Part shown: positions 31,971 to 55,499 of the stretch, piece by piece
Layout: the number at the start of each line of letters is the position of its first letter
Numbering within the stretch: the first letter of the stretch is position 1
Made by a program: the position numbers and the translations under genes
The notes under the pieces: model-generated
Seen by the model: the letters and a program-made list of their open reading frames with translations, nothing else
Told to the model about the DNA's origin: nothing
Databases searched by the model: none
From: Verrucomicrobiota bacterium
GTDB taxonomy: Bacteria > Verrucomicrobiota > Verrucomicrobiia > Limisphaerales > UBA1319
Assembly: GCA_022709905.1 (NCBI GenBank)
Contig: JAKLHY010000026.1
Location: 1 to 64,000, forward strand
Reading direction: 5' to 3'
Length of the DNA: 64,000 nucleotides

Positions 31971-33779
31971 ATGGAACCAAGCCATCATATTGAACCGGAC
32001 GCGGAAGCGCCATTGGATTTCATCCGTCAGATTGTCGCCGAAGACGTGCAGTCTCAGAAACATGGAGGGCGGGTGATCACCCGGTTTCCACCCGAGCCCA
32101 ACGGCTATCTCCACATTGGGCATGCCAAATCGATCTGCCTGAACTTCGGGATTGCCCGGGATTTCAACGGCGTGTGCAATTTGCGGATGGACGACACCAA
32201 TCCCACCAAGGAAGACGTGGAATACGTCGACTCGATTACGGCGGACGTCCAGTGGTTGATTCAGGGATGGGCGGATCAGGTTCTGGCGTTCAAAAGGGCC
32301 GGGGACCCGACGGGCACCGGGGTTTTACTGAACCAGGCCGACGGGCAAAAGCTGGAGCCGTTCTATGCCTCGGATTACTTTCCCCAGATCTATGAATTTG
32401 CGCTGGAGCTGATCCGCAAAGGCAGGGCCTACGTATGCGATTTGTCTCCGGAGGACACCGACGCTTACCGCGGATCGCCGGATCGTCCCGGTCGGGAGAG
32501 TCCCTTCAGGAATCGGTCGATCGAGGAAAACCTCGATTTATTTCAACGGATGAAGGCCGGAGAGTTTCCGGATGGCGCCCGCACGTTGCGGGCCAAGATC
32601 GAGATGGGCTCGCCAAACATTTGGTTGCGGGACCCGGTGCTTTACCGGATCCGGCATGCCGATCATCACCATACCGGCAGCCAATGGTGCATCTATCCAA
32701 TGTATGATTTTGCCCATTGCCTGAGTGACTACCTGGAAGGCGTCACCCATTCCATTTGCACCCTGGAATTCGAGGTGCATCGTCCGCTATACGACTGGAT
32801 ATTAGAGGCTTTGGAACTGCCACGGGCGCTGCCGCACCAACATGAATTTGCCCGTTTGAACCTTGCCTACACCGTCATGAGCAAGCGCAAGCTGCTTCAG
32901 CTCGTGAATGAAGGACGAGTGGTAGGATGGAACGATCCGCGCATGCCCACCCTCTCGGGTATGCGCAGGCGGGGATATCCTGCGGCGGCCATTCGCGCCT
33001 TTTGCGAAAAAGTCGGCGTGGCCAAGCGCGAAAACATTATTGATATGGCCCTGCTCGAGTTTTGTGTGCGGGAAGAACTGAATCGGACTTCAAGGCGAAT
33101 GATGGGTGTGCTCAAGCCCTTGAAAGTCATCCTTTTAAACTATCCTGAGGACCAAGTCGAGCCCCTCGAGGCCGTCAATAATCCGGAAGATCCCGCAGCC
33201 GGCATCCGCCAGGTGCCTTTCTCGAGGGAGATTTTCATCGAGCAGGACGATTTTCGGGAGATTCCGCCCCCGAAGTATTTCCGGCTGACCCCAGGCGGCG
33301 AGGTTCGTCTGCGATACGCATACATCATCAAATGCGTCGAGGTCATCAAGAACGCGCAGGGCGAAGTCACCGAGCTCCATTGCACAGCCGATCTGGATTC
33401 CAAGAGCGGAGGGGCCACATCGAATCGCAAAGTCAAGGGCACGATCCACTGGGTGTCGGCGCCGCATGCCGTTCGGGCCGAAGTCAGGCTTTATGACCGG
33501 CTCTTTACTGTTGAACAGCCCGATGCGGATGCCGAAGGACGTGATTTTAAGTCCTTCCTCAATCCTCAATCGCTGGAAACCTTGCGGGACTGCCGACTCG
33601 AACCCGCACTGGAAAAGGCGGCTCCAGGGGAGGGTTACCAATTCGAGCGACTAGGTTATTTCCATGTCGATCCAATCGACTCCCAGCCTGGGCGGCCGGT
33701 CTTCAATCGCACCGTTACCCTTCGAGATTCCTGGGCAAAAATCGATCAGCCCTCAAGTCGCGGGCCCTCTCGCCGATAA
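31971..33779 (+). CDS. glnS: Glutamine--tRNA ligase
   Basis: 602 residues. Class I synthetase of the GlnRS type. [22 protein letters not shown] has the HIGH motif at 48-51. The family insert [23 protein letters not shown] binds the amino acid and the tRNA acceptor end. The signature [14 protein letters not shown], at about 302-315, is the KMSKS-loop variant of GlnRS. The C-terminal beta-barrel anticodon-binding domain is complete. Its presence suggests direct glutaminylation rather than reliance on the GatCAB route for Gln-tRNA. ATG at 31971 is the natural start. Confidence 0.97.
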
Positions 33780-39976: not shown

Positions 39977-42900
39977 TTACGGGATTGAGACCCGATAGAA
40001 TTGATTGGGGGCATGATCGGGGATATCCAGCTGGACTTGGACCGTGGTGTTCTCGGGGACAGGGTGGGTTTTGCGCCAGACCGTCCAGTCGCCTGTCGCC
40101 AGTGTGTCGCGGGTGTAGATCGTATAGCCGGAACCCGCGGGGACATCGAACTGGAAACGCAATTGCGCATCCTCAAGCGTCACTTGCCGGATCAGGACCG
40201 GCGGAGGATTGGGTCGTCCCGGCGAACCGCCCCAGGCGGCGCTGGCCTTCCATTGTTCGGCGGAGTTCAAGTCACCGTCCGGGCTGTTTGTTTCCAGGGA
40301 GAATCCGTCGCCGTCGGCCGAGGACGGCCATGGCGAGCGGGTGGCATAAGTAAAATCGAGAACAACCTCGTTCTCGGCGTTCAGAGCGGTGACCCGTTCG
40401 CCGGCGTTATCGAGGCGTCCCGAGTATTCGCCGGCGACGGGCAGTCCTATGCCGTAACGAAACTCGAAGGCGCGGTGGTTTCTGACGATGACCACGTATT
40501 GGCCTGGCGCGAGACGGGTGAAGGCCGAACCCGAGAAATCAAACTCAATGCCGGTGACAAACCGCAGGCCATCGAGGTCGCAGGTGACCTCGCCCGCGTT
40601 CACCAATTCGACGAACTCGAATTCATCGGCGTCGCCAAAGCCCGCGGCCGTTTCAGCCGGGGTGGGATCCGCGGGATGATAATGGAGTTCGCTGAGCTTG
40701 AGCATCGGGTCGCCCACAACAAACCTGACCTCCTGAAGGGCGCTCCACTCCGTGCCGTTAAGCACTCGCGCCTTGAGGGTGGTGAGGTCCCGGAGCACGA
40801 TGGGACCGGTGTAAGTCATGGCCGTGGTGGGGGCGCTCACCAGCCGCCGCTCGCCCGCCAGGAGTTCGACCCCAATCAGAAAGTCCGAGCTCGAGACGGA
40901 GTTATTCAGGCCATGGATAGCGAGGATGTTGTTGCCTTTTCTCAGGGCCGATAGAAAGGCGTCGGCCTTGAAATCCTCGAAATTGATGGCGGCGGTGTCG
41001 GAATTTTGGGCGCTGGCGACGGCATTCCAGCTGAGGCTGGAAGGGGCATTGGCGGCGGCAATTTGGATGCCGTTTAAAAAGACCGCGAATCCGTCGTCGT
41101 ACCGCACGCGCAAGGTCAGGTAGTTCAGTTGCGATTGGTGGGTGCCATCGTATTGGAAGGGAATACGAATGAAGGCGGATCCGTTCTTACCGTCCATGGC
41201 CGTGCGGAGATTAATCCCGAAGTAACTCGAATAAGTGGTCTCACGGTCATAACCGACACCGCCGGTGCCGGCGGTCCAACTGGAATCATCGAACGGCTCG
41301 TTGCCGCCCCTCCAGGTGGCACCCAGATTGTTACCGTTGTTGTCAGGGGAGGGAACCAGGGCTTTCTTGGGCGCATTGTAGTTTACCAGGGTGATACCGA
41401 ACAGATCCTCGGTCGTCACGGGTGTGCGCGGATCGCTGCCATTGGTGGTGTAATAGATGGTGGCGCCCGGCAGCGACGTCAGGGTCAGGGGGAATCCAAC
41501 GGGGACGCGGCCGCCCTGCTGGTTGAGGGCCGGAGGATCGGTCCGCGGATACAATCCCACGCGACGGAGTTGTTCGAGGACAATGGCGGATCGTCGGGGG
41601 AAGTAATTGCTGAGGAGATTGGTCTTTTCCTTGGCCCAGTGTTCATCCCGGGTGTAGGGATTGCTGGCGTGTTGATCGCCCCAACGGGCGGATTCGGCGA
41701 CCATGGCTTTTTCCACCTGGTTTGCCAGGGCGACGAAGAGCGCGGCCGGTCGGTTACGTTCCGGATGGGCGGGATCCCAGGCGGGACGGTTCGTGTCCAC
41801 ATGGAAAATACCGTCGTTGAAAAAGTGCCGGTAAACGTGGTCGGCGAATCTGATGCGGAATTCCGGATTAGCCCGGGCGGCGGCATAAGGGGTGGCCACG
41901 GCGCTGTTGACACTGGTGCGGTCCGAGTTGAGGGTCGCCCAGAGACCCAGGGCGGCTTCGGTATCCCAGGGGAAAAACTTGAAGCCGTCTCCATTGACAC
42001 GGTTTCGTCCGGCGTACCAGTTGCGGTGCGGCCAGTCTTCGTTGCCACCGTAGAGATTGACGATCATGTAATCGATCAGGTTATCCACGTCCAGGAGATC
42101 CTCGTATTCTGGATTGCGCGATCCGTCGGGATTATTGCCTTGGATGCGCTCGTAATTGGCGTTATTGGCGAGGCCGGCTCGCGCCTGGGCCAGCATCCGG
42201 TTCCATGCCTGGTAATTGCCATCGGGGGCGGAATCGTAATTGATGGCGTCCCAATCCTCGCGATTCCCGCCAAAGTAAGTCGAGGTGAAGGCGGCGTCGG
42301 GGCGTTCCACAGGATTATAGAGGCCCCAATAAAAACCGTTGATGTAGAGATGCACGAAACTAGTGCGAGGAACGATCATCCCCATGTGGCGGGCCGATTC
42401 GAGGGCAAAGGCGTCGCGAATGTAGAGGGCGGTGCCGCCCGCCGAGTTCCATTGGTATCCATCGTTGTTGTTGGCGCGAAGCGTCAGGCTGTTGAACTCG
42501 TCGGCGGCATCAGGGCCGAAGAACGGATAGCGTAACTTGGCGGCGCCATAGATGGACTTGAACAAAAGCCGAAATGATTTTTTCTTGGTCAGATTGAATC
42601 CTCGGAAGGCGCCTCCTTGAATGCTCAGACCCGCGTTTTCCTGGAATCCCTCTCGGCCATCGGGATGAATGAGCTCGGCCGAAACCGCGCGTTCCCACAA
42701 CGGACCGCGGTTCTGAGGATTGGCATAAATGCCGTTGTTACCGAACAGATCCGGCAGAGGCATAACGAGGGAAAGCGTCGGAATGCTCTTCAGATCGTCC
42801 TGGATGCTGCGCGCATATTTTCCGCCGTATTTATCGGTGCCATTCTGCCCGATGACCCGGCGATCGAGGCCGTAATCGGGAGCGGTTCCCTTCCAACTGC

Positions 42901-44932
42901 TGGGAAACCCCGCTGCCAGGGTGGCTGCGGCGTCCTGACTGATAATATCGTCCAGGAACAGGTAGCTGTGAGTTTCGACACGGGAGGGCCGGTAACCGGT
43001 CCGAAAGCCCGCCGCGCGGATCACACGGGTGCCGCTGATCCGGATCGGGACCGAGTAAACCAAGCCGTTGGTGAGGGCGGGAACTGAACCATTGGTGGTG
43101 TAGCGAATTTCCGCGCCTTCCGTGGCACAGAAAAGAGCAAGATCGAACGTTTGCTCCTTGAATCCCCGGGAGACGCTGAACACCGGTGAATCCACAAATC
43201 CCGCAAAGGCCCCGCCATTGGGCGCGCCCGGCGTCGGGGGATCAAAAAATCCCTCGATCCTGTCGCTTGCTAGCACTTGTTCCAGGACGGCGCGAATGAG
43301 GAAATCCGGGCTGTCTTTGCGATCGTTGAGGCCGTGGATGGCGAGGATATTGGGGCCGGGCAGCAGGAATGATCCATCGATCGGGATCGTCTCAGGCTCA
43401 AGCGCGAGGCTGACCGGGCGGTTGGTCAGTGCCACAGCCTGATCAGACAAGATTTCGGGCGCATTCCGACGGGCGATTTCGTGTCCATTCAGGTAAGCCA
43501 CATAACCATCGTCATACTGCATCTTCAAAAGGAGATTAAAGGCATCCGCGGATGGGTTTGAGGCAAAGGGAAAGCGCAAGTAAGCCGCGGTCTGTTCCGA
43601 GTCCATGAGGGATTTGAGATCCGTCTTGATCAGGTTCTGCAGGTCGCCGCCCTCCCCTGACACCGCAGGCGAGTTTACCTCAAGTCCGCCCGAGGCCCCA
43701 TCGCCGATCAAGCGAAAATGCGTGGCATCCCAGGTCCCATACGATCCTTTTGCGGCAAAAAGCTCGAGCCCCGACCCGCCCCCGCGTTCGAAATAAACCA
43801 GGCGCAGATCGTATTCGCCGGCCTCCCCAAAATTAAAGGTTTGAATCGTATCCGCCGGACTTCGGGGATCGGGATAAGACATCTCGAATCGTTCCGTTCC
43901 CCGCGTGATCTCGAGGCCGAAACCGTCGTCGCTCATGACGCCAAAGGTCCAGCTTCCCGCCGATGGAATCGTGATCCGTCCGGTGGCGAGAATGACAAAA
44001 TCTTCCACATCCTCCCCGGCCTCTGTGCCGGGAAAAGGGCGATCCACGCCATAATGACCTGTATCTGTGGTGCCCAGGTAGTCGATGGAGGGCGCGTTTT
44101 CAGCCGCCACACTCTCGTGGAGGGCGGAAATCTGAATCACTTCTTCCGCGGCGCCCAAATCCTCCACCATCGCCCGGGATTTGAAATTTCGGACGACGAA
44201 ACCCGGAGTCCAGGTGATATAACCCACCCCATTAGTGCCCTTCACCCAGGCATCATCCGCAAACGGCTCCTGTCCGCCCGTCCAGCTTATCCCGAGGCTG
44301 CTATTCGATGGGACCAGGACTTTCACTGGCGCGTCTTCCGCGACCAGGGGGATTCGGCGGTCCTCGGATCGATCGCCATACGAGATATTGGGGCGTTGAG
44401 CAGGATAAGCCCTGTATTCATGGCGAATAGTTCGGCCGTCGGGCATGGTCAGAGCCAGGTAACCTCCCTCGCCCGCGAGGCGGAAGTTGGCGTGGAGGTT
44501 GCCCTGTGCCGGACGCCGGTCTTTGCCCGATGCAAACACAACCAGGAACTGCCCCGCGGCTATCTGCCGGGCTGGGAACTGCCACTTTGTCAGTCTCGAT
44601 GGTTCATCCGACAAATACCATCCGGTCAAGTCGGCCGCTTGTCCGCCGGGATTACAAATTTCAATCCAATCCATCGCCTGCCCATCTTCATCCTTCAAAC
44701 CGCCATCATTGATCGCCATGAACTCCGTGATTAGTAACTCCTGCGCCACAAGCCGAATCCCAGAAAAACAACCGAGCAACATCCCGAACGCAAGCAGACC
44801 GAACCGTAAAAACTGTGCTGCTTCTGGCAGAAACGAGTTCGATGGAGCCCGGTTCGAGACCGTTATCCCTGACCATGGAGAATTGGTAATCACAACAACA
44901 CTCACAAGAGCAGTATCCGTGCCCCTTGTCAA
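39977..44932 (-). CDS. Giant secreted LTD / PA14-like / CotH-domain protein
   Basis: 1651 residues. A hydrophobic segment at about 42-64 ([22 protein letters not shown]) acts as signal. Then in order: a lamin-tail (LTD) domain ([36 protein letters not shown]); a PA14-like beta-sandwich ([37 protein letters not shown]); a chitobiase-type repeat ([15 protein letters not shown]); the CotH-type domain ([70 protein letters not shown]); a second YYTTNGSDP repeat; and a second LTD near 1440-1550 ([12 protein letters not shown]). CotH proteins are atypical kinases that phosphorylate proteins outside the cytoplasm; whether this copy is active is not shown. It may act with the prepilin-like gene that follows. 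Confidence 0.9.
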
Positions 44933-46394: not shown

Positions 46395-48212
46395 ATGACT
46401 GAGCGGATCAATATTGCAGATGAGCTTTTGCGTGAAAACCTCGTGAGGAGAGGGGCCCAATCCGCCATCTACCATGGCCAATCAAGGATCACCTTTCTGG
46501 AACTGGCTGCAAACACCCGTCAGTTTGGGCGTTTTTTCCTCGACCTGGGGCTGCGTCGGCGCGATCGCATCGTCATTCAACTGCCCGACCGGCCCGAGTG
46601 CATTTACGCCTTTCTTGGCGGCATCCAGGCGGGCCTATGGCCGATCCTGGTCAATCCGGAGCTGAGTCATGAGGCCCGGAATCATATTGTGAGCGATTCA
46701 GGGGCAACCGCGTTGGTGACAGACAGAGCCCAGGCGGATGCGGAGGCCTGCACGACTTCCCTGAGGCTGCGACTGAACATCGACGACGATCAATTTCGGC
46801 ATGGTGTGCGGGCCGCATCGCCAGAATTGGATCCCCATCTTGCGCATCCGGATGACATCGCATTCTTTCTTTACAGTTCGGGCAGTACGGGCCACCCGAA
46901 AGGCGTTCCGCATCGGCATAAAGACATGCTCTTCTGCGCTGATTCCTATGGGGCGAATGTTTTGAAGATCACCGAGCGGGACCGCCATTTTTCGGCCAGC
47001 AAACTTTTTTTTGCCTATGGGCTGGGAAACAGCCTGTTTCTGCCCTTCCGATTTGGCGCCTCAACGGTGCTGTTTTCTGACAAGCCAGCTCCCGGGGATA
47101 TTCTTCGGATCATCGCACGTCATCGACCCACGATCTTCTTTGGAGTGCCCGCTCTCTACAGCATGCTGGTCAAAACACTTGACGACTCCGCCGAGTTGGA
47201 TTCATTGCGGCTCTGTGTCTCAGCAGGTGAGGCGTTGCCGGCTGCGATTGTCCGCGATTGGCAACGGCTGACGGGTGTGGAGGTGCTCGATGGGATTGGA
47301 TCGACGGAAGCCTTGCACATTTTCATTTCCAATTTCCCCGGCAGGATCCGGCCTGGATCCTCGGGCAGTGTGGTTCCGCCGTACGAAGCGACCCTTGCGA
47401 GCGAAGGGGGTTCCCCCGTGGCGCCCGGTCAATTGGGGAGCCTGCTGATACGAGGCGGCAGCACCGCCGCGTATTATTGGAACCAGCCAACGAAGACTGC
47501 TCAGACAATGCTGCAAGATGGCTGGCTCAAGACCGGGGACATCTATGTCGAAGAAGACGGTTATTATGCCTATCAAGGCCGTGAGGACGATATGTTTAAA
47601 GTCGATGCTCGCTGGGTTTCTCCCCTTCAGGTGGAGGAAGTCTTGCGTCGACATCAGGCCGTGCGTGACTGCGCCGTCACCTGGCGCAAGCTCGAAGGAT
47701 TAGTCAGGCCCATGGCGTTTGTGATCGTGAATGAAGGCTTTGCCGCGGACTCAAACCTGGAAAAGGGGCTTCGACTGTTCGCGCGGGAGAAACTGCCCGA
47801 ACACATGTGCCCGGTTCAAATCCAATTCCGAGAAACGCTGCCCAGGACCGATACGGGGAAGATCCAGCGATTCCGTCTTCGCCAAACGGGTTTGGGAGAT
47901 GCTCCGAAGAATGTCATTGAACCGGGTGCCTCAACGACTACCATCCATTCGGCAACATCCAAAGGAAAGCTTATGCAAGTTACATCTGCCGATATTCTCA
48001 GCGTCATGAAAGAAGCGGGCATACAGCAGTCGTTGTTGAATCAGCTCAAGCCGGATGTCCCGTTGTTGAACCAGGGATTGGACTCGATCGATCTGCCGGC
48101 GGTCGCCGCCGCCACGGAGAGGCGATTCCACATCGATCTGTCCGATGCCGATGCGCGCGAACTGATGACCGTGAACGATTATGTGCGTTTTCTGAACCGC
48201 AAACTCGAGTAG
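46395..48212 (+). CDS. Benzoate-CoA-ligase-type adenylating enzyme fused to an acyl carrier domain
   Basis: 605 residues from ATG at 46395. Residues about 1-510 are an ANL-superfamily enzyme closest in pattern to benzoate-CoA ligases: FFLYSSGSTGHPKGVPHRHKDM (P-loop), FSASKLFFAYGLGNSLFLPFRFGASTVLF, SAGEALPAAIVRDW, GIGSTEALHIFISNFPG, and the C-terminal catalytic Lys in RTDTGKIQRF. After a Ser/Thr-rich linker, residues about 527-605 are an acyl carrier domain with LLNQGLDSIDLPAV, in which Ser564 is the expected phosphopantetheine site. So the enzyme probably adenylates an aryl or heteroaryl acid and can load its own carrier. Its stop is 24 bp from the end of the convergent five-gene operon. The GTG at 46317 would add 26 atypical residues. 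Confidence 0.88.
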   Translation: MTERINIADELLRENLVRRGAQSAIYHGQSRITFLELAANTRQFGRFFLDLGLRRRDRIVIQLPDRPECIYAFLGGIQAGLWPILVNPELSHEARNHIVSDSGATALVTDRAQADAEACTTSLRLRLNIDDDQFRHGVRAASPELDPHLAHPDDIAFFLYSSGSTGHPKGVPHRHKDMLFCADSYGANVLKITERDRHFSASKLFFAYGLGNSLFLPFRFGASTVLFSDKPAPGDILRIIARHRPTIFFGVPALYSMLVKTLDDSAELDSLRLCVSAGEALPAAIVRDWQRLTGVEVLDGIGSTEALHIFISNFPGRIRPGSSGSVVPPYEATLASEGGSPVAPGQLGSLLIRGGSTAAYYWNQPTKTAQTMLQDGWLKTGDIYVEEDGYYAYQGREDDMFKVDARWVSPLQVEEVLRRHQAVRDCAVTWRKLEGLVRPMAFVIVNEGFAADSNLEKGLRLFAREKLPEHMCPVQIQFRETLPRTDTGKIQRFRLRQTGLGDAPKNVIEPGASTTTIHSATSKGKLMQVTSADILSVMKEAGIQQSLLNQLKPDVPLLNQGLDSIDLPAVAAATERRFHIDLSDADARELMTVNDYVRFLNRKLE

Positions 48213-48236
48213 GATCGAAGGACTTCCGCCTGTCGG

Positions 48237-49262
48237 TCACAGGTGGATTAAATCCCAGTCCTGCCGAACGAATTGCATCAGGGCACGCGCCCTTTCCGAG
48301 TGCAGCATGATGGAATCGAACGCGGGGCGATGGTTGATTTTTTGCATCAAAAGTCCATCCGTTTCAAACCAGCGCGGCAAGTAACCTCCGAGGCAAAAGC
48401 CCTTGGAGCGCAGGCATTCGACGGCGGCTCCGACCCACGGTTGATCGAGATTGAGGAAGCACTGAAGCACGACAATTTGTTCCGACTTGGCTTGGGCTTC
48501 AAGGGGACTCATGACCGTGTCGAAATCCGCGCCGCATGACTCGACATTGAGGCGGCCCACCCCCGCAAAACGGAAAAAACGACTGTCAATTCGACTGCAT
48601 GAGCCTGCGGGAGGCGTCCCGTTGGCTGGCGCCAACTCGCGATCCAAAGCCATCCCCGACAAGAGGTACTCGATGGCATTGCGATAAACTCCCGGCACAA
48701 AGAAGCGCTGCGGGCGATCCCTGACCGACTGGTAATAGTTGATGCATGTGATGCGATTTTTCGTGCCAGCCTCCTTCTCGTAGGACGCCGCGGGCATGAG
48801 CTCCAGCTCAATGGCCGCCTCTTTTGCGCCGACCAGGAGACTGGTTTTTTGGGTGGCGACATGATGCGTCACGGCCTCGCCAAAGTAGCCGCAGAGCGGA
48901 ACCTTTGGGACAAGGACTTCCGCGATATACTTGTTGATTTTGAAGGCGGCGAAGGTGTGGCGATAGGACTTGAGCACGAGGTATTGGCCGACTTCGTAGA
49001 GGGCTTTGTTGGGAGGGGAACTGCGGTAAAGCGCGCCATGGCCAATAATGTCGCCTTTGGCTGTCCTGGCGACGACGGTGTAAACGTTGCCGTTGGAATT
49101 CTCCTCGATGATCTTCTCCGGGATGTAGTAGGTTTCGAAAGGATATTCGCTGCCGTAGATTGAATAGAACAAGCTTGCGACGCCCAGGGCATCCTCAGGC
49201 TTGAATGAATCCACAACAAAATTCTGTCCCGGTTCCACCAGCAGTTCATGATCAATTTTCAT
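48237..49262 (-). CDS. GNAT-like acyltransferase protein (last gene of the Mo-hydroxylase operon)
   Basis: 341 residues. The N-terminal half is GNAT-like: VDSFKPEDALGVASLFYSIYG, VYTVVARTAKGDIIGHGALY, and YEVGQYLVLKSYRHTFAAFKINKYIAE (the region of the acetyl-CoA-binding loop, but without the usual R/Q-x-x-G-x-G/A). Then come CGYFGEAVTHHVATQKTSLLVGAKEAAIEL and a second, divergent alpha/beta half (about 210-335). The pattern matches the GNAT part of HATPase-GNAT proteins, and its operon neighbour (50389-51696) is such a fusion. Its ATG overlaps the aminotransferase stop (ATGA), so the two are translationally coupled. The acyl acceptor is unknown; because the cofactor loop is atypical, catalysis is not certain. 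Confidence 0.7.
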   Translation of the reverse strand: MKIDHELLVEPGQNFVVDSFKPEDALGVASLFYSIYGSEYPFETYYIPEKIIEENSNGNVYTVVARTAKGDIIGHGALYRSSPPNKALYEVGQYLVLKSYRHTFAAFKINKYIAEVLVPKVPLCGYFGEAVTHHVATQKTSLLVGAKEAAIELELMPAASYEKEAGTKNRITCINYYQSVRDRPQRFFVPGVYRNAIEYLLSGMALDRELAPANGTPPAGSCSRIDSRFFRFAGVGRLNVESCGADFDTVMSPLEAQAKSEQIVVLQCFLNLDQPWVGAAVECLRSKGFCLGGYLPRWFETDGLLMQKINHRPAFDSIMLHSERARALMQFVRQDWDLIHL

Positions 49263-50374
49263 AGTCCAGAATAGGGTTTGAGCTCTTCCGCCAATGCGTC
49301 CACCAGTTGCTGCAGAATATCCACGCCGACCACCGTCACCCGGATCCAGTTGGGAAACCGGAAGCCGGTCATCGTTCGAATCATTAAGCCCCGCTTCATG
49401 AGTTTCCGATACAACAGAGTATCACTGAGAGGCACCTGGATCATGACATAGCTGCCCGCGTTGCACAAATAAGTCAGACCAAGCGAGTTCAGTGCCTGTT
49501 GTAGGAACGCCTTGCCCTCACGCATCAGCGCGCGGGTGGCTAGGACGTGGTCCTCGCCCTGGCGGACTGCGGCGCTGGCGGCAGCTTGGGCGATGGTATT
49601 GACCGAATAAACGACATAAGCCCGGCGGACGAGGTCGACGACTTCCCGGGAGCCCGCCAGGTAACCGATCCGCAGGCCGGCCAGTCCATACATCTTGGAA
49701 AAAGTCCGGAACACAATCAGGTTGGGATATTGATCGATCAGGGAAAGCCCGTCCGGGACGTCATTCGACTCGACATACTCAAAGTAGGCCTCGTCCAGCA
49801 CGACGATGCACCGGCCGGCGACTTGGTTTAAAAATCGGATCAATCGATCGCGGTCCCAGTAAGTTCCGGTCGGATTGTTCGGATTGCAGATGAAAATGAT
49901 TTTCGTGCGCACGTCAATCTGGCTCAGCAGGCCCTCGTCATCGAAGGCAAAGTCTTTGAGCGGCACCAGACGCCGGTCAAAGCCGGAGAACTCGGCCACC
50001 CATTCGTAGACGGCAAAGGTCTTGTCCGCGGTGACGATGTTATCGCCTCTCTCGCAGAAAGCTTTGAGGACGGAGCTGATGACCTCGCACGATCCGTTGC
50101 CGACCAGGAATTGCTCGGGGTGTTTGCCGAATTGCTCGGCCAAGGCGACGCGGAGGAAATAGGAATCGCCGCTGGGATAGATGGCGGATTTGGCCGGGGG
50201 AAACTGCCGGACGATGGCCTGGGCGGCCGGGGGGGGCCCCAGTGGATTCTCGTTGTTATTCAGCCGATGCAAAACGGGGCAGCCGTAAAGTTGCTTGAGT
50301 TCCTGGTCCGGCTTGCTGGGAACGTAGCTCTGGTAGTGCTGGATATAGTCGGGGACGAGATGTTTAAGATCCAT
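49259..50374 (-). CDS. HisC-like PLP-dependent aminotransferase
   Basis: 371 residues from ATG at 50374. Fold type I class II aminotransferase with the histidinol-phosphate aminotransferase pattern: LNNNENPLGPPPAA, AIYPSGDSYFLRVALAEQF, VGNGSCEVISSVLKAFCERGD, the Asn/Pro motif FICNPNNPTGTY, VVLDEAYFEY, the PLP Lys227 in RTFSKMYGLAGLRIGYLAG, and the C-terminal Arg in GFRFPNWIRVTVV. HisC-like enzymes also serve tyrosine, phenylalanine and secondary-metabolite steps. The setting next to a Mo-hydroxylase and acyltransferases, without other his genes, argues for a pathway-specific role. It begins 14 bp after the upstream stop and overlaps the next gene by 4 nt. Confidence 0.9.
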   Translation of the reverse strand: MDLKHLVPDYIQHYQSYVPSKPDQELKQLYGCPVLHRLNNNENPLGPPPAAQAIVRQFPPAKSAIYPSGDSYFLRVALAEQFGKHPEQFLVGNGSCEVISSVLKAFCERGDNIVTADKTFAVYEWVAEFSGFDRRLVPLKDFAFDDEGLLSQIDVRTKIIFICNPNNPTGTYWDRDRLIRFLNQVAGRCIVVLDEAYFEYVESNDVPDGLSLIDQYPNLIVFRTFSKMYGLAGLRIGYLAGSREVVDLVRRAYVVYSVNTIAQAAASAAVRQGEDHVLATRALMREGKAFLQQALNSLGLTYLCNAGSYVMIQVPLSDTLLYRKLMKRGLMIRTMTGFRFPNWIRVTVVGVDILQQLVDALAEELKPYSGL

Positions 50375-50388
50375 GGGAGGGATTCCCC

Positions 50389-51696
50389 TTACTGCTTTTG
50401 AAACATCACCATATCCGATCGTCCGGCGTATGGAATCACCATCCGTGGGACGAATCCCGTTTCGATCAAGTCCGGCACGAAGGCGGATTGCCATGAGACG
50501 CCCAGGTCCAGGCCGAAGAGGATAGTCTGCAGGTTTTGGTCGGCAAACAGCGAGACATGTTCGCGCAGGTTAATGGTGGCATCGCGTCCGTAACAGAGTC
50601 CGGTCAGCATGACCACATGGCGATCCTTTTGGATTTCGCAGGCCAACACCGAATGCTCGGGCGATCCGGATCCCGGGCAGGGAATCATTCGCAGGACACG
50701 CGGTAGCACGAGCCGGTCATATTCCTTGCGGAGGAAGGTTTCGAGGCTGGGGTGGCAACAAACCGCCGTTCCCTCGTCTTCGCGCAACAGCCGGATGGCC
50801 AATGATTGGGTGGCGGATGTTCGCCTGTGAGCATGGCAGAGGGTGTGCCCCAGCAGATCGAATCCGGCGGGGATCTCCTGATCGGCCTCTTTTCGGCAGA
50901 TAATGCCAACGGCGGCTGTTTTGGCGGAGGCTTCCACGAGGTGGTCGATCAAGGCGCCGGCCAGGGCCGGTGGCTGGGTGTTGGGAAACTGGAAGGGGCC
51001 GAAGAGCTCAATCATTTTATCACTCAGCCATGTCCAGAGGATACCTCCGCAAATTGCCCCGCTATCCGTCACCGCCATGGCGGCCTTGATATCGCCCGAG
51101 GCGACCAGGTCGGCCGCTTTACCTGGAAAGTTCAGGAATCCGGGATAGTGGACGACTGAATAATGGGCCTTCACCAAGGCTGCAAACGACTGAATCTCAC
51201 CCGCATTTGCCGGGTGGATCTGCCAGTTTGCCGCAATGGAGATCAAGTCGGGGCAAGGCTTCGTTTTCTCGCAGTAAACGCGGTCGATCGCCAACGAAAG
51301 GCAGGTGCGGCCATCGGCTTCGCTGGAGAGCTTGAGTTGATCGACCATGCGTGCGGCCACGAACAAACCCAACTCATCCAGGTCCTGCCCCTTATCCAGC
51401 GGGGCTTTGGCGGTGATGTTGAGCACCCGCAGATCCAGGGAACGGGGCTTGAAGAGAAATCGAAGGGTCAGTCGGTACACGCCGTTACGGGCGCGGATCT
51501 CGACCGGTTCGGCGGTGCCCAGCACGCGGCACAGAAACGTGAATACTTCCTCGGCGCACAATCGCAGGCTGTAGAGCTCGGTCTCGCCAAAACCATAGGC
51601 CTGCCCGGCATTTTCCGCGAAGGAAACCGCCAGAGGCAGGAAAGCCAGGTCGCCCGAGAGAGACAAAGAGATTTCTGAGGGTAGTGTTTTGTGCAT
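50389..51696 (-). CDS. HATPase-like (RsbW-type, degenerate) and GNAT fusion protein
   Basis: 435 residues. Residues about 1-140 have the layout of an anti-sigma/RsbW-type ATPase domain: LPLAVSFAENAGQAYGFGETELYSLRLCAEEVFTFL, then RFLFKPRSLDLRVLNI and DLDELGLFVAARMVDQLKL. The Asn that usually follows the EE pair is replaced, and no DxGxG box is visible, so ATP binding is doubtful. Residues about 150-300 look GNAT-like (FAALVKAHYSVVHYPGFLNFP, AAMAVTDSGAICGGILW, VGIICRKEADQEIP). It is cotranscribed between the FeS-FAD subunit gene (15 bp) and the aminotransferase (14 bp). Its role is unknown: a regulator, an acyltransferase or a non-catalytic partner are all possible. Confidence 0.65.
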   Translation of the reverse strand: MHKTLPSEISLSLSGDLAFLPLAVSFAENAGQAYGFGETELYSLRLCAEEVFTFLCRVLGTAEPVEIRARNGVYRLTLRFLFKPRSLDLRVLNITAKAPLDKGQDLDELGLFVAARMVDQLKLSSEADGRTCLSLAIDRVYCEKTKPCPDLISIAANWQIHPANAGEIQSFAALVKAHYSVVHYPGFLNFPGKAADLVASGDIKAAMAVTDSGAICGGILWTWLSDKMIELFGPFQFPNTQPPALAGALIDHLVEASAKTAAVGIICRKEADQEIPAGFDLLGHTLCHAHRRTSATQSLAIRLLREDEGTAVCCHPSLETFLRKEYDRLVLPRVLRMIPCPGSGSPEHSVLACEIQKDRHVVMLTGLCYGRDATINLREHVSLFADQNLQTILFGLDLGVSWQSAFVPDLIETGFVPRMVIPYAGRSDMVMFQKQ

Positions 51697-51711
51697 GGAA
51701 TGTCGTGAAGG

Positions 51712-53112
51712 TCAGGCCTCGAGTAACTTGAGGAGCAGGTTGCCGGAGACCAGGCGCCGGTAATGGGCGCTGGCCCGCACGTCATCGATGGGCAGGACGC
51801 GTTCCTGGACGAGTGCGGCGGCCGATTTCAGGTTCTCGACCGTCAGGGGTTTTCCGAGCAACATTTTTTCGATCTCCGGAAAAACCATCACGGTCGGCCC
51901 GACGCTTCCCCAAGCCAGATGGATATCCTGGAGTGCTCCGTCAGGCTGGCAGCTCCAGGTTGCGGCCAGGCTGACGACGGCTATGGCCAGGGCCTTGCGT
52001 CGTCCCACCTTGAAATAGCGGTGGCGCATACCGGTTTCCGGGATGGGAACGTGAACGGACCACAAGATCTCGCCGGACCGCAGATCGGTCTGTCGCGGTC
52101 CGAGGATGAATTGAGAAATGGGCACGATTCGACGACCGTCCAGCGATCGGATCTCGACTTTGGCCTGAAGCGCATAGAGCGGAGGGAGAGAATCGGCGGC
52201 GGGCGAAGCGGTGCAGAGGTTTCCGCCCAGGGTGGCCATGTGGAGGATCGGGGGCGAACCGAGGACGCGGATGGCTTGTCGCAACAGATCCAGATGCTCG
52301 CGAACCAGCGGGGCATCATCAATCTGTTGAAAGGTGGCCGCAGCACCGATGACGATATCATTTCCTTCCATCGAGATCCGTTGAAGCTCGGGAACCCGTT
52401 CGATTCCGATCAGAACGCGGGGCGCGGATCGGTTTTCACGGCGCCAGACCAGCAGGTCTGTGCCGCCGGCCATCAACCGATAGTCGGTCTGTTTGCCGGC
52501 CAATTTGAGCAGGGCATCGCCGGACTCGGGGAACAACACCTCGGTTTGATTGGTTCCGAACGTTCGTGGATCGAAAGACGGCTTGGAAAACAACGGCTTT
52601 GGATCGGCTGTGTGGTCTTCGGCTGAAACCCAGGGAGGAGGAGAGAATTCCTGGCTGTCTTCGTCGGCCGCGATGGCCACGGCATCCACGATTTTTTGAT
52701 AGCCTGTGCACCGGCAGAGATTCCCGCTGATCGCGGTGGAAATGTCCGTTCGCCGGGGATGCGGATTGCGTCGGAGCAAGTCCGCCGCCGAGACGATCAT
52801 GCCGGGCGAACAGTAACCGCATTGGGCGGCCCCGTGGCGCACGAAGGAACGCACCAGCTTGGTCTGCGCGGGATCGGCTGCGATTCCCTCAATCGTGGTC
52901 ACCGTCCGGCCATGCAACTGCGCGGCGAGCATCAGGCAGGAAAGCCTGCTTTCTCCGTCCACCAGGATGCTGCAGGCGCCGCATTCGCCGGAGCCGCAGC
53001 CTTCCTTGGATCCGGTCAGCCCGAGGTTATGGCGCACGAGATCGATCACGCGCCGGTCGGGCGGCACATCGAGTGTCTGGAGATTGCCGTTGAGGGTAAA
53101 CTCGATTTTCAT
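51712..53112 (-). CDS. Xanthine-dehydrogenase-family FeS-FAD subunit
   Basis: 466 residues. N-terminal plant-type [2Fe-2S] domain with CGSGECGAC and a later Cys (about 39-60), then the second [2Fe-2S] all-helical domain with CGYCSPGMI and CRCTGYQ (about 98-140). After a short linker comes an FAD-binding domain of the CO-dehydrogenase flavoprotein type (LMAGGTDLLVWRRE, APLVREHLDLLRQAIRVLGSPPILHMATLGGNLCTASPAAD) and its C-terminal domain. The fused FeS-FAD form is the XdhA-like small subunit and passes electrons from molybdenum to FAD. Its ATG overlaps the stop of the Mo-subunit gene (ATGA, 53109-53112). Confidence 0.94.
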   Translation of the reverse strand: MKIEFTLNGNLQTLDVPPDRRVIDLVRHNLGLTGSKEGCGSGECGACSILVDGESRLSCLMLAAQLHGRTVTTIEGIAADPAQTKLVRSFVRHGAAQCGYCSPGMIVSAADLLRRNPHPRRTDISTAISGNLCRCTGYQKIVDAVAIAADEDSQEFSPPPWVSAEDHTADPKPLFSKPSFDPRTFGTNQTEVLFPESGDALLKLAGKQTDYRLMAGGTDLLVWRRENRSAPRVLIGIERVPELQRISMEGNDIVIGAAATFQQIDDAPLVREHLDLLRQAIRVLGSPPILHMATLGGNLCTASPAADSLPPLYALQAKVEIRSLDGRRIVPISQFILGPRQTDLRSGEILWSVHVPIPETGMRHRYFKVGRRKALAIAVVSLAATWSCQPDGALQDIHLAWGSVGPTVMVFPEIEKMLLGKPLTVENLKSAAALVQERVLPIDDVRASAHYRRLVSGNLLLKLLEA

Positions 53113-55499
53113 GCGCGGTTCCGGGATGTCAGGGCCGACAGAACGCGCTCGGGAGTCAGCGGTCCTTTTGGGATTCGGGCTTGGATAGCTTCGGCGATGG
53201 CGTTTGCGACGGCGGCGCAGACCGGATCGATCACGATTTCGCCCAGGCCTTTCATGCCGAATGGCCCCTGTGTTTCCTGTTCTTCCACCGGAATGGAGAT
53301 CATGCTGGGCGAATCGAGCGACGTAGGGATGAGGTAAGTCGTGAAATTTCGGGTCAAGATCACCCCTTTTTCCTGCTTGAATTCCTCCATCAGCGCGTAA
53401 CCCAATCCCTGGACGATGCCACCCTGCACTTGTTGTTCATAGGTTTGGGGATTGAGGACGCGACCGGCATCGGTGCTGGAAAGGAAATGGCAGACCGTGG
53501 TTTCGCCGGTGAGTTCGTCCACCTCGACCAAGGCCAGTTGTGCCGCAAAGGAAAAGATGCGGTGCGGCAATCCCCATTTCCGGAGCTCTTCCGTTGAGCC
53601 TGCTTTTTGGCTGGCAGTCGGTGCGGTATAACTGAACGTGCAACAGCGCTCGGCTGGATCCATGGCCTGCGCGATCATCGCCAGAGAAAACAATCGGCCC
53701 GATGTCAAATGACAGACGCCATCCGGCAACAGCGCGAGATCGGTGGAGGCGATTTCCCTGAACAAAGTCATTTTTGCCAGCAACAGGGCCCGCTGGAGGA
53801 TTCGGTCTGCCAGCATTTGTGCCGCTGGAATCAAGGCGTTTCCAAAAGTGAAGGTCGTGCGGCTAGCCGAGGAGGAGCCGGAGGGAAGGGTGCGAGCGGT
53901 ATCGGGCAGAACCACCTGGAGGGCATCCGGTCGCTGGTTCAGAGTGGCCCCTGCGATTTGCAGAAATGTGGCGATGTTCCCTTGGCCCATGTCGGCAACG
54001 CCGACATAGACCGTGATCCGGCCGTCCGGCATTAACTCGATTTTGGCGGTGGCATGATCTGGGACTACTGGGCCGTATCCCATGCCATGTGAGGCAGAGG
54101 CCAGGCCAACCCCTCGGCGTTTGAATCTTGGCGCTTCGGCGATCCAACGTTTTCGGTCTTTCCAGAATGCGTGCCGCCGGAGGGACTCGAGGCAGGACGT
54201 GACCGCGACGGATTCCGTCAGGCGCACGCCGCAGGCATTCTGATCACCCTGGGTGAGGGCATTCCGCAGTCGAAATTCCAGCGGATCCAGACCGGTTTGG
54301 CGGGCCAATTCATCAATCAGCTGTTCGAGGGCTGCGGTGACTTGAGGCACTCCGAAACCCCGAAAGGCGCCGCCGATGGGATTATTGGTATAAACGAGAA
54401 ATCCCTCGATCAGGGCGTTGGGGATGCGGTAGATGCCACCGGCATGTTCCATGGCGAGCGCCAGAACGGCGGTTCCCAGGCAACTATAGGGACCGGTATC
54501 GAATAAGAGACGGCACGACAGACCTTGAAGAGTGCCGTCCTTCTGGCAGCCGATTTCATAATGGATCCGGACGGCGTGTCTCTTGGTCGAGGAGATAAAA
54601 CTCTCTTCGCGGCTGTTGACCAGCTTGACGGGGCGGCCTTCGGAATGCAGGGCGGCCAGGCCCAACAGCGCTTGGACAGTGATGCCGTCTTTGCCTCCGA
54701 AACCGCCGCCCAGTTGCGGGGCGATGACTCGGACTTGATCCGGCTTCAAACCCAGGCTCGAGGCGATCTCAAATCGGTCACGAAAAGGGGTTTGCGTGGA
54801 CGCGACCACGACCAAGCTTCCGCCCGCCTCAGACCAGGCTACTCCACATTCGGTCTCGAGGTATGCATGTTCCTGGCAGGGAAACTCGAATTCGCCGTCG
54901 GCAACGAAATCGCATTCCCGCAGCGCGCTCGCCCCTTGGCCATTCACGATCTGGCCGCTCAACAACACATTTCCGTGAGGCGCCTTTTCATGAACAAGAG
55001 GGGCCTCTGGGCGCATGGCCAGCTCAGGATCCTCGATCGGCGGCAACGCATCGTAGTCAGCCTGTATCAAGGCCAGGGCATTGCCGATGGCATCAGGGGA
55101 CTCGCCCAAAACGAGGGCTACCGCGTCACCGGGATGGCGGACTTTGTCATCACACAAAACTGGCATGTCAAATTCGGGGATCCCAACCCGGTTCGATCCT
55201 TTGACATCTTGGAAGGTGAGGATCTTGAAGATGCCCGGCGTTTGAGCGGCCGAGGCGATATCGATGTGTCGAATCCGGGCATGTTGTTGACCGGATCTTT
55301 TAACGCCGAGCCACAGGCAGTTGTCTGGAAAATAGTCCGAGGCATAGGTTTCTTTGCCGGTGACTTTGGCCAGGGCATCATACCGGATTTCAGGCCGACC
55401 GATGGCGGAGGCTTCGCTGCGGACACAAGGCATTGGATGGGCTTGAGCTCCAGGAAAGCAAGCCGGGGCTGGATGCAATGGGAGTTTGGCCTCTTGCAT
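53109..55499 (-). CDS. Xanthine-dehydrogenase-family molybdenum-binding subunit
   Basis: About 796 residues from ATG at 55499; ATG at 55433 (MPCVRSEASAIGRPE) gives 774 and is equally plausible, because the family region starts there with RYDALAKVTGKETYASDYF. Motifs of Mo-hydroxylases are intact: QLGGGFGGKDG, GGAFRGFGVPQ, GVGLASASHGMGYGP, ADMGQGN, and the catalytic Glu region GPFGMKGLGEIV. It is the first gene of the five-gene operon. A TATAAC box (55684-55679) lies upstream with no good -35 at normal spacing. The substrate (purine, N-heterocycle, aldehyde or aryl-CoA) cannot be told from sequence; the convergent benzoate-CoA-ligase-like gene favours an aromatic or heteroaromatic acyl compound (inference). 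Confidence 0.94.
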   Translation of the reverse strand: MQEAKLPLHPAPACFPGAQAHPMPCVRSEASAIGRPEIRYDALAKVTGKETYASDYFPDNCLWLGVKRSGQQHARIRHIDIASAAQTPGIFKILTFQDVKGSNRVGIPEFDMPVLCDDKVRHPGDAVALVLGESPDAIGNALALIQADYDALPPIEDPELAMRPEAPLVHEKAPHGNVLLSGQIVNGQGASALRECDFVADGEFEFPCQEHAYLETECGVAWSEAGGSLVVVASTQTPFRDRFEIASSLGLKPDQVRVIAPQLGGGFGGKDGITVQALLGLAALHSEGRPVKLVNSREESFISSTKRHAVRIHYEIGCQKDGTLQGLSCRLLFDTGPYSCLGTAVLALAMEHAGGIYRIPNALIEGFLVYTNNPIGGAFRGFGVPQVTAALEQLIDELARQTGLDPLEFRLRNALTQGDQNACGVRLTESVAVTSCLESLRRHAFWKDRKRWIAEAPRFKRRGVGLASASHGMGYGPVVPDHATAKIELMPDGRITVYVGVADMGQGNIATFLQIAGATLNQRPDALQVVLPDTARTLPSGSSSASRTTFTFGNALIPAAQMLADRILQRALLLAKMTLFREIASTDLALLPDGVCHLTSGRLFSLAMIAQAMDPAERCCTFSYTAPTASQKAGSTEELRKWGLPHRIFSFAAQLALVEVDELTGETTVCHFLSSTDAGRVLNPQTYEQQVQGGIVQGLGYALMEEFKQEKGVILTRNFTTYLIPTSLDSPSMISIPVEEQETQGPFGMKGLGEIVIDPVCAAVANAIAEAIQARIPKGPLTPERVLSALTSRNRA

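Follow-up and report, generated by a model that had tools for sequence, protein, structure and literature searches.

A candidate mobile small-molecule gene cluster of Verrucomicrobia, in which an aryl-acid ligase-carrier converges on genes for a molybdenum hydroxylase, an aminotransferase and two GNAT-type proteins

Several described protein families come close to the products of the locus reported here. Benzoate-CoA ligases (TIGR02262; 2v7b, 4eat) share with its ligase the adenylation domain, the pocket motifs and the catalytic Lys in TGKIQR, whilst the FadD22-type p-hydroxybenzoate-AMP ligase has the same architecture, in which an aryl-acid ligase bears a carrier domain of its own. The molybdenum (Mo) hydroxylase has its fold, cofactor motifs and catalytic Glu in common with the xanthine dehydrogenases PucD/XdhA, nicotinate dehydrogenase and 4-hydroxybenzoyl-CoA reductase, and its fused FeS-FAD subunit resembles the small subunit of bacterial xanthine dehydrogenase (XDH). 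The aminotransferase shares the PLP fold and both active-site Arg motifs (MIR and IRV, judged by eye) with HisC/aromatic aminotransferases (TIGR01141, 4r2n). Finally, both GNAT-type proteins align with HATPase_c_2-GNAT proteins of about 500 aa (loci L006, L007 and L008). The preliminary description of this DNA, made from the sequence alone, knew of no named pathway with such a set of genes, and a literature search likewise found no paper describing it.

The six ORFs first listed between positions 46395 and 55499 of the window (the whole stretch of 64,000 nucleotides analysed) are all present (Table 1). ATGA overlaps are exact at 53109-53112 (Mo and FeS-FAD subunits) and at 49259-49262 (aminotransferase and GNAT-type protein), and the remaining intergenic gaps on the minus strand are 14 and 15 nt. 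These junctions, and the recurrence of the genes in other genomes, uphold the earlier view of the five minus-strand genes as one operon. The coordinates and Pfam also agree with a plus-strand ligase carrying its own carrier domain, its stop lying 24 nt from the convergent GNAT-type gene. Profile searches with Pfam and NCBIfam bear out the ligase, carrier, aminotransferase, FeS-FAD and Mo assignments. Promoter and terminator scans gave no excess over shuffled sequences, and among the cluster genes there is no regulator and none of the known core enzymes of biosynthesis (KS, NRPS C domain). The genome from which the window comes has an estimated contamination of 5.27%. Elsewhere in the window (39977-44932) is the gene for an apparently secreted protein of 1651 aa, with parts that by eye resemble lamin-tail and CotH types.

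Table 1. Genes and domains of the cluster, in window coordinates.
Feature	Coordinates	Strand	Basis
Ligase-carrier, aryl-acid (benzoate-CoA-ligase-type) adenylating	46395..48212	+	ATG 46395, stop 48212
Carrier (PP-binding) domain of the ligase	48042..48194	+	PF00550 26.4 bits, cut-off 20.8
Two-domain GNAT-type protein without HATPase	48237..49262	-	Homology to HATPase-GNAT proteins L006-L014
HisC-like PLP aminotransferase	49259..50374	-	Aminotran_1_2; TIGR01141 267 bits
HATPase-GNAT protein: degenerate HATPase joined to a shortened GNAT-type region	50389..51696	-	Profile matches, alignment
HATPase_c_2-like domain, without N-box Asn and G1 motif	51292..51651	-	PF13581 22.0 bits, alignment
Fused [2Fe-2S]/FAD subunit, xanthine-dehydrogenase family	51712..53112	-	Fer2/Fer2_2/FAD_binding_5/CO_deh_flav_C
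Mo subunit, molybdopterin-binding, xanthine-dehydrogenase family, non-purine active-site signature	53109..55499	-	MoCoBD_1/2

Co-occurrence of the genes was searched for in 320 genomes of the window's order. The HATPase-GNAT gene was found in three of these, and the ligase-carrier in exactly those three genomes and no others. Ligase-carrier orthologs score above 1100 bits, the next best match in the order reaching 468. In each of the three genomes ligase and operon are adjacent and convergent. No further ortholog of the two-domain GNAT-type protein or of the ligase-carrier was found in samples of the phylum (388 genomes) and the class (384 genomes), and a scan of viral contigs returned no match. 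The first relative (record CAIMWS010000200.1, uncultured Verrucomicrobia, LaPlata_bin-2736; hereafter G002) is a metagenome-assembled genome of another genus, and has all six genes in the order and orientation of the window at 58-76% protein identity. The second (G651), from another family, has the ligase-carrier, the two-domain GNAT-type protein, a MATE gene, the aminotransferase and the HATPase-GNAT gene. Its contig ends 194 bp ahead of the HATPase-GNAT match, and no Mo subunit ortholog was found in the rest of this draft genome, although an assembly gap would look the same. Identities to the window in G002 and G651 are 64% in both for the ligase-carrier, 76% and 74% for the aminotransferase, 67% and 66% for the two-domain GNAT-type protein and 59% and 60% for the HATPase-GNAT protein; the Mo subunit of G002 is 72% identical. 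A MATE exporter gene lies inside the operon in two of the three genomes (G002, where it stands between the aminotransferase and GNAT-type genes, and G651), in agreement with Pfam. In the window these two genes are not separated by an exporter gene, and no MATE gene was found elsewhere in it. Since the same gene order recurs in two other genera amid unrelated flanks, the cluster goes beyond chance.

Flanking genes have nothing in common between the loci. Cluster proteins of G002 and G651, which belong to different families, are 80-86% identical, compared with 63-66% for other genes of these genomes (two HisC copies and XdhC, n = 3). Because the flanks are unrelated and the cluster proteins are the more similar, these comparisons argue for horizontal movement of the cluster and, on three comparison genes, for a transfer linking G002 and G651. 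Every shared gene has a dN/dS between these genomes of approximately 0.10-0.21, including both GNAT-type proteins, which would thus be under purifying selection and not decaying. As in a biosynthetic cluster, the gene set is kept as a unit in unrelated surroundings together with an exporter, the latter missing only from the window copy. We tentatively favour the reading that this is a horizontally moving small-molecule biosynthetic cluster with an exported product, probably of an aroyl-amide type, which we regard as quite possible.

A more distant copy was found on pTs417, a plasmid of the purple sulfur bacterium Candidatus Thiodictyon syntrophicum Cad16T (Gammaproteobacteria; genome paper PMC5944118). 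On one strand it carries genes for the HATPase-GNAT protein (34% identity to that of the window), the aminotransferase (63%, the next plasmid match being 35%), a transporter of the MFS type according to Pfam, the remains of the Mo subunit, FeS and FAD proteins, and the two-domain GNAT-type protein (39-40%; 39% over its full length). The gene order differs from that in Verrucomicrobia, whilst the membership is the same save for the ligase. It may be, therefore, that the HATPase-GNAT protein, aminotransferase, Mo hydroxylase, GNAT-type protein and exporter are the core, and that the Verrucomicrobia acquired the ligase-carrier later, to decorate the product or for some other purpose. We consider this doubtful, but it is in line with a plasmid that has all of the core genes and on which no ligase-carrier was found anywhere, and with the opposite strand occupied by the ligase in all three Verrucomicrobia. 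However, the search covered the plasmid alone, and its cluster has decayed, the Mo gene (L095 13984-16534) being broken by IS607-family transposase genes with the loss of its middle. Moreover, ligase and core were never found apart in the 320 genomes of the order. The earlier suggestion that the two work together is supported by all three genomes of the order but not by pTs417.

Two further features of pTs417 were recorded. Beside the cluster lies a 578-bp fragment (L095 9300-9880) of a zinc alcohol dehydrogenase gene. It was considered as a pathway member and rejected, as it duplicates, at 97.8% identity, a segment (32362-32940) of a complete gene some 23 kb distant, a sign of recent rearrangement. 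The stretch L095 32347-37020 of the plasmid encodes a zinc alcohol dehydrogenase, a 6-carboxytetrahydropterin synthase, a glycosyltransferase, a methyltransferase, a cytochrome b and a RibD-like protein, possibly a pathway of pterin type.

The ligase consists of AMP-binding, AMP-binding_C and PP-binding domains (Pfam) and belongs to the benzoate-CoA ligase family (TIGR02262, 449 bits, cut-off 375). The stretches KLFFAYGLGN and STEALHIF agree with the pocket of benzoate-CoA ligases, confirming the type originally assigned to it, and the lysine of TGKIQR is retained. The phosphopantetheine Ser of the carrier lies in GLDSIDLP and is kept in all three genomes, in each of which the carrier scores over the PF00550 cut-off and a PPTase is encoded. 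Fusion to a carrier suggests that the acyl group would be loaded onto this domain rather than released as a CoA thioester. The G651 ligase (L023 5056-6858) reads GSTGQPNGV in its P-loop, as against GSTGxPKGV, so that the loop lysine is substituted.

The Mo hydroxylase is a member of the XDH superfamily, with MoCoBD_1/2, [2Fe-2S] and FAD domains and the catalytic Glu. In a small tree of Mo subunits the placement of the window's protein has low support (0.546). A gene for XdhC, the Moco-insertion protein, is present in all three cluster-bearing genomes. The only one found in the window's genome (L071 1239-6127, G000 contig C294) adjoins another Mo-hydroxylase operon, hence the cluster's enzyme would depend on a chaperone encoded elsewhere.

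We infer all of the chemical steps, and likewise that the substrate is aromatic and the linkage an amide. The ligase-carrier would adenylate a benzoate-type acid and then load it onto its own carrier domain, and the HisC-like aminotransferase would supply a primary amine. The Mo hydroxylase (Mo and FeS-FAD subunits) may oxidise an aldehyde or hydroxylate an N-heteroaromatic ring of the intermediate. Acyl group and amine would then be joined by the two-domain GNAT-type protein with the degenerate HATPase-GNAT protein, probably as a partner or scaffold, and the MATE or MFS transporter, where present, would export the product.

The same enzymes could conceivably form a catabolic or assimilatory operon, in which an N-heteroaromatic or aromatic compound is oxidised and deaminated and the ligase activates an aromatic acid so that it can be degraded. 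Outside the ortholog group, the closest ligases of the order are indeed benzoate-CoA ligases, one of them beside genes that we read as benzoyl-CoA-reductase-like (L100), and of the plasmid-borne Mo subunits closest to that of the window several adjoin 6-hydroxynicotinate reductase. However, those plasmid Mo subunits are at most 38% identical to that of the window, ring-cleaving, ring-reducing or beta-oxidation genes are absent from the cluster, and a carrier domain and an exporter would be unusual in catabolism. We therefore regard a catabolic role as unlikely. A biosynthetic one accords better with the gene membership, with the presence of an exporter, with an aminotransferase and a Mo enzyme dedicated to the cluster, and with its spread in unrelated surroundings.

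The joining step concerns the two GNAT-type proteins. The two-domain protein has no Pfam match even at E<=10, and its original label of GNAT is sustained by remote homology instead, with an E value of 2.6e-22 to the L006 protein, which is itself over the PF00583 cut-off; the Thiodictyon ortholog matches PF00583 below the cut-off. The call of a HATPase-GNAT protein stands in so far as a HATPase-like domain can be aligned, but its PF13581 score is under the cut-off of 27.4 bits, and the alignment shows neither the N-box Asn nor the G1 motif in any of the four cluster orthologs, hence it does not qualify as a HATPase_c_2 ATPase. Nor do the window copies qualify as canonical GNAT acetyltransferases, both being without a Pfam GNAT match and having the R/QxxGxG/A CoA loop replaced: where the L006 protein has RGQGAF, the two-domain protein has RHTFAAF (YRHTFAAF) and the HATPase-GNAT protein TQPPALA. 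The same loop varies in some relatives outside the cluster too. It is likely, judging from these motifs, that CoA binding has been lost in both proteins. The acyl transfer that had been inferred for this operon is thus weaker, with the classical CoA-loop glycines gone from both and the HATPase devoid of ATP motifs.

Both proteins align with HATPase-GNAT-GNAT-like proteins of about 500 aa scattered in the phylum. The two-domain protein retains the GNAT part and has lost the HATPase, whilst the other retains the HATPase-like domain with the first GNAT part shortened; both would accordingly descend from one ancestral HATPase-GNAT gene. Direct alignment of the two with each other is not significant, and their AlphaFold models (mean pLDDT 37.7 and 42.5) are too poor for use. 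A bolder extension, which we rate as improbable, is that these duplicated descendants make up a heteromeric acyltransferase with the dead HATPase as scaffold, drawing its acyl group from the ligase carrier and not from CoA, and yielding a new class of Mo-oxidised amides. Members of the parent family were seen at L006, L007, L008, L009, L011, L012 and L014; family members adjoin a STAS-like gene once (L061 6415-6750) and a possible ATP-grasp gene once (L066 1857-4427). A different cluster, on the Salmonella enterica plasmid CP054717.1 (L096 5133-10891), encodes an acyl-protein synthase, an AMP-binding protein, a PaaK-like ligase and a GNAT whose N-terminus is 30% like the two-domain protein over approximately 100 residues.

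HATPase_c_2 is the anti-sigma-type ATPase domain, and one canonical family member is encoded beside a STAS-like gene. It could be proposed on these grounds that the two GNAT-type proteins act in regulation or signalling, in the manner of HATPase-GNAT proteins encoded close to STAS genes, and have no part in the chemistry of the Mo enzyme. We find this very unlikely, as the ATP motifs are lost from every cluster ortholog and both proteins accompany metabolic genes across phyla.

At the positions of bovine Glu802 and Arg880, which we take to be purine-binding residues and which were mapped via R. capsulatus XdhB (1jro), the Mo subunits of the window and G002 have Asp and Leu. The enzyme also scores under the NCBIfam equivalog cut-offs (pucD 521 of 784 bits, xdhA-type 477 of 780). 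Identity as a purine xanthine dehydrogenase was rejected on both counts, and the purine signature is absent, as was expected of an enzyme outside purine catabolism. Histidine-biosynthesis HisC was rejected for the aminotransferase, which falls below the hisC cut-off (276.55 bits for TIGR01141), whilst each genome has two other hisC genes over it. That ordinary genes of purine catabolism and histidine biosynthesis are here neighbours by chance is hardly credible, even with xanthine dehydrogenase subunits and hisC as the top named HMMs, given these sub-cut-off scores and altered residues, the other hisC copies and three further Mo hydroxylases in the window's genome.

The specialised metabolism of uncultured Verrucomicrobia is little known. 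A compact cluster that lacks a PKS or NRPS core, and that occurs in more than one phylum and on a plasmid, may be overlooked by rule-based finders, and the whole could be expressed from about 9-10 kb. The cluster also offers an example of a regulator-like HATPase-GNAT protein apparently converted to pathway parts. Compared with the known systems, the ligase differs from benzoate-CoA ligases in its fused C-terminal carrier and is about 40% identical to those of the same class and order. It falls far from the FadD22 equivalog (NF004716, 229 bits, cut-off 1228), and a polyketide synthase is not nearby. The Mo enzyme differs from PucD/XdhA, nicotinate dehydrogenase and 4-hydroxybenzoyl-CoA reductase in the Asp/Leu pair at Glu802/Arg880 and in scoring below all NCBIfam cut-offs. 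Unlike HisC, the aminotransferase is a dedicated cluster copy, which in none of the three genomes reaches the hisC cut-off. Lastly, compared with the L006, L007 and L008 proteins, the GNAT-type proteins of the cluster have shed the ATP motifs and the glycine loop, and are encoded by two separate genes.
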